A stretch of 64,000 bases of DNA from Chloroflexota bacterium (lineage in GTDB: Bacteria > Chloroflexota > Anaerolineae > Anaerolineales > Anaerolineaceae), in NCBI GenBank assembly GCA_004347695.1, contig SLTK01000007.1:226823-290822 (forward strand). Direction: 5' to 3'. Below, piece after piece: positions 11,058-54,359 of the stretch (the first letter of the stretch is position 1; each line of letters opens with the position of its first letter). The notes under the pieces were generated by a model that was not told the DNA's origin, ran no database searches, and worked only from the letters and a program-made list of their open reading frames with translations. The translations under genes were made by a program, and so were the position numbers.

Positions 11058-13124
11058 TTGAATATCAAGGTTAGAGGTAAAAACCGTATTTTTAGTACGA
11101 TGCTAACCATACTGGCTGTTACAACCAGTCTGTTGACATTCTCGCGTCCTGCTCGTGCCGGAAATATTCGGGTTCCGGAGGATTATCCCACCATCCAGGC
11201 GGCCATTAATGCAGCCGTCACTGGGGATGTGGTCATTGTCTCCCCGGGAACATACAACGAAAACCTGGTGATTGCAGGAAAAACCATTACTCTGACATCT
11301 CTTTATTACACAACCGGCGACCGGCAGTACATCGACAGCACCATTATCAACGGACGATTGTTAGGCCCTGTTATTCAAGTCAGCAGCTCCGTTGGTCCTG
11401 AAACGACCATTCAGGGATTAACGATTTATAACGGGTTAGACGGAATTAGTGCTTTTACAAAATTAAACATACTCGATAACCGTTTCAACGCGAACGACGA
11501 TGGCATCGACTTCAGCGACAGTGGTGGGTTGGTACGCGGCAATATCTTCGAGAATGGCACCGATGACGGTGTGGATTTTGATATGAAGTCCGAGGCTATC
11601 GTTGAAAACAATATAATGCGGAATAACCATGAGGATGGAATCGAAATCCGTTTCCAGGACTATGTTGGCCCAACCCTCAATATCACTATTCGTAACAATC
11701 AACTTATTGGCAACGGGCAAAATGGTATCCAACTTATTGGGTATCCTGCCACCAGCAATCGGGTCATCAACATCGAACATAACCTGATCAAGGACAATTC
11801 GCGGGTTGGCGTCGGACTGATGGATAATGCCCAGAGCGGTGAAGATTACCGGGCTGCCAGCCTTCTTGAACGAATTAATGTGATCAACAATACTTTTTCC
11901 GGGAATAAATATGCGATAACAGGCGGGGACAACCTGGTAGCGGTGAACAATATTTTTACGGGTTCGACGACCATGGGGATAAAAAACATTGACGGCAATT
12001 CTGTTGTCTCACACAACCTCTTTTGGAACAACGGGACTGATCATTCTGGCAGCAATGTCGATTTATCGTCTTCTTTATTCGCCAACCCTCTGCTGGATCT
12101 GGATTTTGGCTTGCAGTATGGCAGCCCGGCAATCGACGCGGGTACAGCCCAATTCATCTTTCAGGGAAGCACCATATTCGATTATTTACCAAGTACCTAT
12201 TTCGGGACAGCTCCCGATCTGGGATGGCTTGAAAGTAATTTTCTCAACGAGCCAACAGCCATCCACACGCCTACCATCCCGCCAACATCAACCCCCAGGC
12301 CCGGCGATACTTTTACTTTTGCTCCGCTGGACGATGCAACAGTTAACAATTTCTCCCCAGGAACGAATTACGCCTCAGATGCCCTGCTAATTGTTGATAA
12401 TTCTCCGATTGAACATTTCCTGATTAAATTCCAGGTAGATGGACTGAATGGGCTTGAAATTACCCAAGCCACCTTGAATCTGTACGTAAACAACGAATCG
12501 ACCAGGGGAGGTGACTTTTATCTGGTACTGGATAATTTCTGGGCTGAAGAAACAATAAATTGGTATAACGCTCCAATCGCGGACTCAACCCTGGTGGCTT
12601 CGCTCGATACTGTTGCAATTAACAATTGGGTTTCCATTGATTTAACCTCGCTAATCACGGATGACGGACTGTATTCCCTGCGGGTATCTTCTACCACTAC
12701 CGACGCCGCTAAGTACTCTTCAAAGGAAGGAGAGTTTCCACCGTTCCTTGAGATCATTGCGGCCAGTCCGCCAGCCACGACCCCGGATCTACGAACCCCG
12801 ACCGACACAACGACGACCACGCCAACTACTACACAGATAATTCCACCCACCGTCACATTTACAAATACAGTCACGGCGACTCCGACCTTAACCAATACAT
12901 TTACACCAACAGCCACAGTAACAAAAGTGTTTACTCCTACTCCGACCTTCACTGAAACTTTTACTCCCACTCCTACTGAGACTGAAACGATCACACCTGC
13001 ATTAACCGCCTCAAGAACCGTTACATCAACGGCCACGGTTACAAAAACCATTACACTGGCCGTGACATCTACTCCCATCCGAGAAGAGTATTTTTATTTC
13101 CTCCCGTGCATCTTTTCTTATTGA
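11058..13124 (+). CDS. secreted right-handed beta-helix protein with DNRLRE-like domain and Thr/Pro stalk
   Basis: About 688 aa. The frame opens at GTG 11016, but TTG 11058 lies behind AGGGGG (4-nt spacing) and directly gives a basic n-region and signal peptide ending RPARA-G. Next is IRVPEDYPTIQAAINAAVTGDVVIVSPGTYNEN, split over two strands, the standard opening of parallel beta-helix (pectate-lyase/NosD-like) proteins, followed by many NN-rich turns to about residue 400. Residues of about 430-580 (FAPLDDATVNNFSPGTNYASD, FLIKFQVDGL, WYNAPIADSTLVAS) match DNRLRE/CBM96-type carbohydrate-binding domains. The last 110 residues are a Thr/Pro-rich repeat stalk and a hydrophobic FLPCIFSY end, typical of cell-surface proteins of Anaerolineae. 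Likely polysaccharide binding or breakdown; no catalytic residues assigned. Confidence 0.8.
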   Translation: MNIKVRGKNRIFSTMLTILAVTTSLLTFSRPARAGNIRVPEDYPTIQAAINAAVTGDVVIVSPGTYNENLVIAGKTITLTSLYYTTGDRQYIDSTIINGRLLGPVIQVSSSVGPETTIQGLTIYNGLDGISAFTKLNILDNRFNANDDGIDFSDSGGLVRGNIFENGTDDGVDFDMKSEAIVENNIMRNNHEDGIEIRFQDYVGPTLNITIRNNQLIGNGQNGIQLIGYPATSNRVINIEHNLIKDNSRVGVGLMDNAQSGEDYRAASLLERINVINNTFSGNKYAITGGDNLVAVNNIFTGSTTMGIKNIDGNSVVSHNLFWNNGTDHSGSNVDLSSSLFANPLLDLDFGLQYGSPAIDAGTAQFIFQGSTIFDYLPSTYFGTAPDLGWLESNFLNEPTAIHTPTIPPTSTPRPGDTFTFAPLDDATVNNFSPGTNYASDALLIVDNSPIEHFLIKFQVDGLNGLEITQATLNLYVNNESTRGGDFYLVLDNFWAEETINWYNAPIADSTLVASLDTVAINNWVSIDLTSLITDDGLYSLRVSSTTTDAAKYSSKEGEFPPFLEIIAASPPATTPDLRTPTDTTTTTPTTTQIIPPTVTFTNTVTATPTLTNTFTPTATVTKVFTPTPTFTETFTPTPTETETITPALTASRTVTSTATVTKTITLAVTSTPIREEYFYFLPCIFSY

Positions 13125-31363: not shown

Positions 31364-32332
31364 TTATGCGGCCTGGTCCTGGCTTTTGAAAGACTTAGCA
31401 GCGTCTGTGGTCAGGCATCCCGCCAGATGATCTGCCAGCGTGATAAAGTCAGGCAGCCGCCAGATTGCTCCGCTTTGTAAAGGCCATTCACCGCGCAACA
31501 TCGTTTTCCAGGCTTCCGGGATCGCTTCCAGACCGTAGGCGGCTCCTGCCAGTGCTCCGACAACTGCGCCGGCTGTATCTGCGTCTGCGCCAAGGTTGAT
31601 CACACTGACCAGGGCATCTTCGAAGGTGTCGGTGTTAAGCAGCCCCCACAGGGCGCTCTCGACAGTGTGGCGTACCCAGCCGGTGTTACGCAGTTCTTCG
31701 CGCTTACGACGCGGCGCCAGGCGAATGGTTTGCCTGAGCCCTTCCGGCATCTCGACCAGGGTAAGTGCGTACTGGTAGGCGTCGAGAGGACTCTTGCCAT
31801 TGATCATTTGAGCAATCATGGAATTGATGAATGCGCTGCTGGCAATACATTCTTCATGAGCATGGGTCACCTGGCTTTGCATACGCGACCAGGCGTTTAA
31901 TGCACCTTCGTCATGCCAGCACATCAGCGCCACCGGCCAGGAGCGCATGACCGAACCATTACCGGCGCTGTCAGGATACCTCTTCTGCACCGTAACCGCT
32001 GCGGTTTGCCAGGTTTCTCCGAGCTCGATGCTTTCCAATACGTTGGTTGTGTGAATGCCGACATCCGGCGGCTGTCGCTTGTACCAATCCAGGAACCGGG
32101 CGGTGACATCTTGTGGGTCGAGCATGCGCTGCGCCAGCAAAGATTCGGCCAACGCTAGAGCCATTTCTGTATCGTCGGTGAAGGTGCCGGCAGGCAAGCG
32201 ACCGGCATGCATGTCACGGATTAATTTTGCAGGGGGTGAGGCCAGGCCAAATTCGAGCGGCATCCCAAGGGCATCGCCTACGGCAGCACCAACGGCAACG
32301 CCGCGTAAACGATGGGTGGTTTGCAGGTTCAT
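31364..32332 (-). CDS. ADP-ribosylglycohydrolase family protein
   Basis: Removes ADP-ribose from modified proteins, or acts on related ADP-ribosyl compounds. ATG 32332 has AGGAGG about 10 nt upstream. The family metal motifs are present: GAAVGDALGMPLEF, TFTDDTEMALALAESL (the T-D-D-T/S box), NGSVMRSWPVALM and the late GADADTAGAVVGALAGAAYG (the D-x-D-T box). Length about 322 aa. Last gene of the long minus-strand run from 41186; 32 nt after the glycosyltransferase stop. No DraT partner in the window. Confidence 0.92.
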   Translation of the reverse strand: MNLQTTHRLRGVAVGAAVGDALGMPLEFGLASPPAKLIRDMHAGRLPAGTFTDDTEMALALAESLLAQRMLDPQDVTARFLDWYKRQPPDVGIHTTNVLESIELGETWQTAAVTVQKRYPDSAGNGSVMRSWPVALMCWHDEGALNAWSRMQSQVTHAHEECIASSAFINSMIAQMINGKSPLDAYQYALTLVEMPEGLRQTIRLAPRRKREELRNTGWVRHTVESALWGLLNTDTFEDALVSVINLGADADTAGAVVGALAGAAYGLEAIPEAWKTMLRGEWPLQSGAIWRLPDFITLADHLAGCLTTDAAKSFKSQDQAA

Positions 32333-53112: not shown

Positions 53113-53185
53113 GCCCCCATCGTCTAGTGGCCCAGGACGTGGCCCTCTCAAGGCCAAAACGAGGATTCGAATTCCTCTGGGGGCA
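53113..53185 (+). tRNA. tRNA-Glu (CTC)
   Basis: Acceptor GCCCCCA/TGGGGGC; D-arm GTCTAGTGGCCCAGGAC; anticodon stem TGGCC/GGCCA with loop CTCTCAA giving CTC (reads GAG); T-arm GAGGA-TTCGAAT-TCCTC. Discriminator A at 53185; CCA not encoded. Confidence 0.95.
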
Positions 53186-53283
53186 CAAATGTTTTTTGGC
53201 CCTCTCATCCCATCGAGGGATAATTAAGGTCAAAACGAGGATTCGAATTCCTCCGCCCAACGGGCGCGCTGTGCGTGGGGGCA
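53186..53283 (+). repeat. 98-nt unit containing tRNA-Glu 3' half with insertions, copy 1
   Basis: Starts right after the tRNA. Carries GGCCCTCTC, then 19 nt (ATCCCATCGAGGGATAATT), then AAGGTCAAAACGAGGATTCGAATTCCTC-like sequence, then 22 nt (CGCCCAACGGGCGCGCTGTGCG in 2 pieces), then TGGGGGCA. It is thus the anticodon-to-acceptor half of the tRNA with one insertion in the anticodon loop and one between T-arm and acceptor. No 5' half. Confidence 0.8.
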
Positions 53284-53381
53284 CAAATGTTTTTTGGCCC
53301 TCTCATCCCATCGAGGGATAATTAAGGCCAAAACGGGGATTTGAATTCCTCCGCCCAACGGGCGCGCTGTGCGTGGGGGCA
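53284..53381 (+). repeat. 98-nt tRNA-Glu-derived unit, copy 2
   Basis: Tandem copy of 53186-53283 with the same length, differing at about three positions (AAGGCC for AAGGTC, GGGGATTTG for GAGGATTCG). After it, 53382-53564 shows nothing recognisable. Confidence 0.8.
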
Positions 53382-53617: not shown

Positions 53618-54196
53618 CTACGAGCGCCTACTACTTTTTATGGCGGTACCAGGTTGCCAAGGGGTGCCTAGCAGCTTTAGAACGAAACGGTCCAGTCCCC
53701 AATAACCGGCGGTCCTCCAGGCCAGTATCAATAAAATCGATAGGATTATAAGAACCGGGTTAGCACTGGCTGTTCCTGCCATCATGAAATTCCAATTCAT
53801 GAAGCCGCCAAAGAAAGCCGCAATGGCGGTGAATAAACCGAGGATCAAACCCAATCCAACCAGAATTTCTCCTGCCACTAAAAGCTTTGCAAACCAGACC
53901 TGAGATCCGCTTTCTAACAACCCCTGGAGAAAAGCGCGATACCAGTCAAAGACAATAAGTGGGCGAGCAGGTGCTTCAGGAATGGCAACAGCGCGGGTCC
54001 AAAACCCTTTGAGAATATCACCGGTCTGTACCCAACCAGGGTTGCTCAATTTGCCGATGCCGGACGAAAGCCATTCATATCCTACATACAATCGGACAAT
54101 CAGCCACAAAAAAGACCAGGGTTTACTATTGAATAACTTGTTCACAAAAGGCGGATTAGAAAAGCTGGTTTCTTGCTCTAGAGATAGAGTGCCCAT
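53618..54196 (-). CDS. DoxX-family membrane protein
   Basis: About 192 aa from ATG 54196 (AAGGAG 7 nt upstream; the longer frame to 54274 lacks one). Four TM helices: FLWLIVRLYVGYEWLSSGIGK, LLVAGEILVGLGLILGLFTAIAAFFGG, NWNFMMAGTASANPVLIILSILLILAW and the end, with the DoxX-typical R-x-x-x-G-x-x-x-x-x-x-G-x-x-K start. Family members are quinone-linked or redox-associated membrane subunits of varied role. Terminator downstream at 53565-53600. Confidence 0.85.
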   Translation of the reverse strand: MGTLSLEQETSFSNPPFVNKLFNSKPWSFLWLIVRLYVGYEWLSSGIGKLSNPGWVQTGDILKGFWTRAVAIPEAPARPLIVFDWYRAFLQGLLESGSQVWFAKLLVAGEILVGLGLILGLFTAIAAFFGGFMNWNFMMAGTASANPVLIILSILLILAWRTAGYWGLDRFVLKLLGTPWQPGTAIKSSRRS

Positions 54197-54359
54197 ATAT
54201 TTCTCCTTGAGATTAAATTGGATAGCTTGGATGCAGAATAACCAAATTATTATTTTTTTTGTTTCATTACACAATGTACTTTTTGCCTAAAAATTAAGCA
54301 GCATTTTTGCCCAATTTTGAACCAGGGAAAATACCTTGCTAATCAGCACAACAGGATAG

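Follow-up and report, generated by a model that had tools for sequence, protein, structure and literature searches.

The window, by which we mean the whole 64,000-nucleotide stretch of DNA analysed here, comes from a lineage of the Anaerolineaceae (Chloroflexota). On its forward strand, at 53113..53185, it carries an intact tRNA-Glu gene with the anticodon CTC, which was called by ARAGORN at 53113-53186 and by Rfam at 53113-53185 (RF00005, 61.8 bits). Two units directly abut tRNA-Glu(CUC) with no gap, unit 1 at 53186..53283 and unit 2 at 53284..53381, both on the same strand and 97% identical to each other. Each is composed of a trailer, the anticodon arm, the T arm and the acceptor 3’ strand of tRNA-Glu(CUC), and this last element (TGGGGGCA) ends unit 1 at 53276..53283 and unit 2 at 53374..53381 on the forward strand. 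The 5’ acceptor strand and the D arm are absent from both units, in line with the missing 5’ half reported by a first-pass annotation made from the sequence alone. A T run opens unit 1 at 53192..53197 on the forward strand, with its unit 2 counterpart at 53290-53295; by eye, every unit of several relatives (L007, L018, L059) shows a terminator-like hairpin plus T run at this place.

Two inserts interrupt the tRNA-derived sequence, and each is identical in both units. A 19-nt insert (53207..53225 in unit 1 and 53305..53323 in unit 2, forward strand) follows the CTCTC of the anticodon arm, placing it in the anticodon loop, and consists of the hairpin ATCCC-ATCGA-GGGAT plus AATT. A 22-nt insert (53254..53275 and 53352..53373, forward strand) lies at the junction of the T stem and the acceptor 3’ strand and is palindromic (CGCCC-AAC-GGGCG and CGC-TGT-GCG); we found a close version of it in a congener (L004) and a related one in Anaerolinea thermolimosa (L039). 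The places given earlier for both inserts were correct, as was the conclusion that duplication took in the inserts along with the rest.

Tandem Repeats Finder reported a period of 98 with 2.1 copies and 97% matches (score 393), the strongest of three arrays in the window. The other two, at 12930-12988 and 32258-32302, are short weak tandem repeats with periods of 30 and 24 that are apparently unrelated to the array. Aligned to the 450 nt downstream of the gene, the 3’ half of tRNA-Glu(CUC) scored 56; the highest of 200 shuffles reached 23 and the upstream DNA 14. The reading first proposed, a tRNA-Glu followed by two tandem 98-nt copies of its own 3’ half, is confirmed. Rfam matched the tRNA alone in the window and offered no family for the units; a 44-nt stretch of a window unit had no exact match among viral contigs, and plasmid and phage collections contained no match to a window unit. 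The units fold into anticodon-arm and T-arm hairpins with z of -2.4 and -1.9 (-3.3 for the true tRNA-Glu), which is not exceptional for their composition. The next gene-like long ORF downstream of the array lies on the opposite strand (53618-54274), leaving no obvious gene in sense orientation directly after it.

Introns of tRNA genes occur at position 37/38, where the 19-nt insert also stands. The position had been recognised correctly in the first-pass annotation, but the insert shows no sign of being an intron: its host is a copy that lacks the tRNA 5’ half, and other hairpins occur in the T loop and at the T/acceptor junction. An intron-containing tRNA was accordingly rejected, the 5’ half being absent from the units and ARAGORN and Rfam calling the upstream gene only. 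We also rejected a CRISPR array, as the two units are alike throughout (97% identical) and have no unrelated spacers. An assembly artefact is unlikely: comparable arrays follow tRNA-Glu(CUC) in relatives, namely a congener (L131), A. thermolimosa IMO-1 (L039) and single-contig genomes from the order (G071 and G240).

Arrays in the genome, the family and the phylum

As a control, we examined 46 other tRNA genes, 39 from the window’s own genome and seven from A. thermolimosa. Twelve were flagged; four of these were neighbouring intact tRNAs (Thr twice, Ala and Ser-TGA) and were left out. In the other eight (Gly-TCC, Gly-GCC, Lys-TTT, Lys-CTT, Met, Ser-GCT, Pro-GGG and Glu-TTC), all among the 39 of the own genome, the gene is followed by a self-copy truncated to its 3’ part. 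In every one of these self-copies the T loop has the same kind of hairpin at its 5’ edge, and hairpin-free partial copies were not flagged at any of the 39 genes. These hairpins have the form CCCC-loop-GGGG, or a close variant, with a tail near GATGNTA; their consensus is YCCCC-loop-GGGGATGNTA, directly before TTCGA. The loop is variable (ACAG, ATCGA, ATTGA and others), and the stem and tail are constant. Written as the motif CCCCN{3,6}GGGATGNTA, the hairpin occurs 16 times in the 3.3-Mb genome, compared with two matches for the reversed pattern. Fifteen of the 16 copies lie behind tRNAs, L251 being the exception, and none of the 16 is found at the far end of an island.

To survey tRNA-Glu(CUC) itself, a 37-nt pattern of its 5’ half was matched in 86 of 147 family genomes and the downstream DNA was then taken. 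We removed six of 89 loci (fewer than 60 nt downstream, an incomplete tRNA, or N), and in local alignments the tRNA’s own 3’ half recurred downstream with a score beating all 200 shuffles at 26 of the remaining 83 loci, a set in which two loci belong to another family (L028, L031) and one is a false match to a pseudo-tRNA (L076). The other 57 showed no copy at the shuffle criterion; five (L005, L010, L067, L084, L093) were scored negative because one or two of the 200 shuffles reached their score, and by eye parts of units are visible in L005, L010 and L093. A stricter test built on the final 14 nt of each gene was positive at 20 of the 89 loci and missed the window because of the 22-nt insert. 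The group is the Anaerolineaceae, with A. thermolimosa IMO-1 among the named matches. Outside the window’s family, we picked 40 of 55 pattern matches, and of the 37 loci that were long enough one (L176) was positive.

The arrays reach at least eight units within the stretch read (L059). The T arms of the units tend to match the local tRNA, including at loci where that tRNA is unusual (L061, L092), suggesting that units and gene are homogenised or that units are made anew, and the distal ends of arrays are decayed. Some contigs end within the tRNA 3’ half or directly behind it (L042, L043, L044), as expected where that half is repeated. At L061 (G036, tRNA-Glu CUC), an anticodon-loop segment is inverted beside a degenerate direct copy, forming a large palindrome. 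At L092 and L047, the T loop or spacer of tRNA-Glu units holds other palindromes that resemble intergenic repeats.

The motif followed by TTCGA was found in 22 of the 147 family genomes and in 20 of 400 phylum genomes, with no match for the reversed control in either set. The 20 phylum genomes comprise three of the ten sampled from the window’s family (f1), 16 of the 24 from f12, a second family of the same order, and one from outside the order (G502, L225); this sole outside match has no called tRNA nearby and was taken as chance. We fetched 20 family loci: 19 lie directly behind an intact tRNA, and the remaining one starts at a contig end. Among 11 further loci (ten from f12, and L225), nine have a tRNA and one, L231 (G212:C17:7400-8200), has hairpin units behind a tmRNA gene (Rfam RF00023, 75 bits). 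A called tRNA lies within 260 nt in 14 of 19 more loci, three of which (L259, L260, L261) repeat loci of the phylum survey. The five without one are three contig ends, L257, where the tRNA is cut by the stretch taken and a tRNA match was found nonetheless, and L251, which is off-tRNA.

The tRNAs that bear arrays differ from species to species. In A. thermolimosa (L197, G103:C1:3137600-3139400), a segment of about 583 bp with tRNA-Ser(GGA) and its array is duplicated in tandem, the two arrays having two and six hairpin units. Literature searches among open-access papers yielded no description of such arrays, a weak negative given that most subscription journals lay outside the scope of the search. 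The arrays apparently represent an order-level class of repeat, tied to tRNA loops, that has so far gone undescribed.

Anatomy of the units and the two forms of the hairpin

The arrays can be described by a single scheme, in which a gene A-B-C-D becomes a locus A-B-C-D’-[B’-hairpin-C-D’]n, where B is the variable loop and the 5’ T strand, C runs from the T loop to the 3’ end and D is the trailer, often with a terminator. We collected 90 distinct T-type units, which, as the search pattern dictates, resume at the T loop and then run toward the 3’ end; 86 of them stand behind a tRNA. The first hairpin lies 19-50 nt past the tRNA in 33 of 39 arrays, and the gene upstream is intact wherever the contig shows that side. 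About 10 nt 5’ of the T-loop hairpin match positions 44-53 of the array’s own tRNA with a mean identity of 0.87. When segment C was compared with the isotypes of the set by ungapped identity, the own tRNA was the best match in 65 of 86 units and tied in seven; another isotype was better in 14, which look like decayed or indel-bearing copies. The flanks B’ and C thus largely track the local tRNA, and the hairpins are common to different tRNAs. Pairing of the T stem is full in 37 of the 86 units, compared with 86 of 86 tRNAs. The units are mostly 60-130 nt long and free of genes, and many of them have a terminator-like hairpin with a T run in D’ (L018, L059, L193; by eye).

The hairpin occupies one of two sites: it borders the T loop on its 5’ side or, in arrays of tRNA-Glu and of some tRNA-Val genes, lies in or beside the anticodon loop. 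The window units belong to the second type. The two forms are linked by their presence in one array or even one unit: the first unit of L131, from the window’s genus, has an anticodon-loop hairpin (ATCCCATCGAGGGAT) and a T-loop hairpin, with the T-loop hairpin alone in later units, and at L202 and L229 (tRNA-Val) both forms stand within one unit. Judged by these sequences, the window hairpins are the anticodon-loop form of the T-loop hairpin. At L060 (G056), the hairpin is present about five times in a row inside one unit, a pattern from which it appears that the hairpin can multiply on its own.

An anticodon-loop hairpin with the loop AUCGA is kept behind tRNA-Glu(CUC) across many genera. We examined 26 distinct hairpins of the CCAT[CT]GAG type near tRNA-Glu, a set that includes a few T-loop and chance matches, and found the outer three pairs formed in 58 of 78 cells, compared with a mean of 33.6 and a maximum of 46 in 2000 shuffles. 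The proposal that the inserts are hairpins is therefore upheld by covariation across relatives as well as by their own sequence. This covariation could have its source in the correction of palindromes during replication rather than in selection or mobility.

Short hairpins that are repeated in one lineage, inside other sequences, are also known from REP/BIME and Rickettsia palindromic elements, to which the array hairpin bears a likeness. REPs are dispersed over intergenic space, unlike the array hairpin, which is nearly confined to the loops of tRNA-end copies; in the own genome, 15 of the motif’s 16 copies adjoin tRNAs, a distribution that differs from REP-type dispersal. Nor does the hairpin appear to track Y1 transposases, and such an enzyme is not supported as the driver: Y1_Tnp was detected in 15 of the 16 genomes with the motif and in 11 of the 14 without it, and G044 has the motif but lacks Y1. 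We identified neither a transposase or recombinase for the arrays nor an intermediate.

Origin of the arrays

The anatomy and spread of the arrays are well supported, and from them we infer, with moderate confidence, a lineage-specific tandem repeat that is built from tRNA and tmRNA 3’ ends and in which gaining a loop hairpin and duplicating the 3’ end are coupled events at the DNA level. Shared hairpins stand on local flanks, they stand in copies and not in the working gene, and no hairpin-free copy was flagged; together these sequence patterns suggest the coupling. The essential gene would survive and the spare copies alone would carry the hairpin, and the arrays would then grow, shrink and homogenise with the tRNA through recombination. 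Palindrome-driven template switching or a putative loop-directed enzyme may act on the DNA, and an RNA product would not be needed, considering that in many arrays each unit contains its own terminator-like hairpin. On the opposing side, the set of array-bearing tRNAs changes between species, so that the arrays may be short-lived minisatellites whose hairpins arise from a shared mutational bias. More tentatively, the hairpin and its GATGNTA tail might be a mobile palindrome for tRNA and tmRNA loops, whose insertion would duplicate the 3’ end of the target in the same step and leave the gene whole, with repeated rounds enlarging the arrays. That would constitute a new class of insertion, sparing essential RNA genes without carrying their sequence.

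If coupled duplication is right, one bacterial order has a repeat that builds itself from tRNA and tmRNA ends and a shared hairpin. The arrays would offer a clean natural system for the links between palindromes, tRNA loops and duplication, and for the targeting of essential RNA genes that stay unbroken. Partial tRNA copies in this order should not automatically be taken as attR sites, and some contigs end at such 3’ halves.

The two origins first offered for the window units were scars of integration and duplication with hairpins. The second is closer to our results; simple scars are unsupported, as most units measure 60-130 nt, contain no element body and extend over more of the tRNA than an attachment-type block would. 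We consider it unlikely that elements recombining at T or anticodon loops left attR blocks of the 3’ end after a conserved hairpin end and were reduced to mini-units by deletion of their bodies. The closest precedent is in the same phylum, in the ssrA islands of Dehalococcoides, where insertion occurs in the tmRNA T loop with 20-bp direct repeats and a conserved 15-bp motif directly upstream (PMC3146451). As in the arrays, copies of the tmRNA 3’ end starting from the T loop stand in tandem, several of them downstream of the intact gene, with the conserved motif just upstream of each (PMC3146451). Arrays are likewise found behind tmRNA. The islands also include an integrase gene with an embedded repeat, dsiB (PMC3146451), to which we compare a serine-recombinase-like ORF of at least 539 aa in the relative G160 that runs into tRNA-Glu(CUC) on the opposite strand. 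The C-terminal 293 aa of this ORF match Zn_ribbon_recom (E 9.4e-9), and its start is resolvase-like by eye. Among the loci read, G160 alone has a clear recombinase gene adjoining the tRNA. At this locus (L246, G160:C11:1-6000), an apparent integrated element lies directly behind tRNA-Glu(CUC), with the serine-recombinase-like ORF followed by DNA-methyltransferase-like and tyrosine-recombinase-like ORFs, the last two recognised by eye. Since integration does occur at tRNA-Glu(CUC) in this relative, the arrays may have a historic link to it.

Against scars stands the local origin of the flanks. The 90 T-type units have the block from crossover point to tRNA 3’ end expected of an attR, by construction of the pattern, but where element-derived 5’ sequence is expected there are about 10 nt resembling the own tRNA, and in the window type the whole anticodon arm matches the local tRNA as well. 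The motif upstream of the Dehalococcoides repeats, in contrast, does not align with ssrA, and those repeats bound islands with genes (PMC3146451); the array units are short and gene-free, hold more of the local tRNA, have hairpins and stand behind many different tRNAs. A single element end would have to suit a dozen tRNAs with differing 3’ ends. Fifteen of the 16 motif copies of the own genome are in tRNA-adjacent arrays with none at an island’s far end, and the window locus contains no element, nor does one separate gene from copy in the own genome’s arrays. Partial tRNA genes left by mobile elements resemble the arrays in that a duplicated 3’ part lies next to or near the intact gene; in the main example of the source, an element of about 21.4 kb separates the partial and complete copies (PMC9897764), whereas the arrays are tandem, adjacent and hairpin-bearing. 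Plain integrase scars thus fit less well than coupled duplication.

Less probable again is plain tandem duplication with decay, in which slippage copies 3’ ends and template switching grows palindromes in their loops with no specific element or enzyme. The decay of distal array ends would fit, as would the stems, which stay paired through two-sided changes as palindrome correction would give, and the other palindromes that also occupy these loops (L009, L047, L092). Random growth should, however, yield many sequences in many places. We instead found that the GATGNTA tail and the exact site before TTCGA recur across tRNAs and genera (reversed control, 0), and the T loop bears the hairpin in eight of eight clear copies of the own genome. 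A functional tRNA-like or trailer RNA made from the units, for example a sponge or one tuning the maturation or charging of tRNA-Glu, is improbable: the AUCGA-loop anticodon hairpin does persist in many genera and covaries, and the units do fold into two tRNA-like arms, but this folding is unexceptional for composition, the units match no Rfam family, many arrays have a terminator-like hairpin per unit (L018, L059, L193), 49 of 86 T-type units do not pair their T stem in full, and 57 of 83 tRNA-Glu(CUC) loci are without a copy at the shuffle criterion.

Downstream copies of tRNA-Glu at L077 and L070, both from genus g15, keep the 5’ half, and in them a hairpin (GCCCATGGGGC or similar) replaces the anticodon loop. 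These copies are possibly an early stage.
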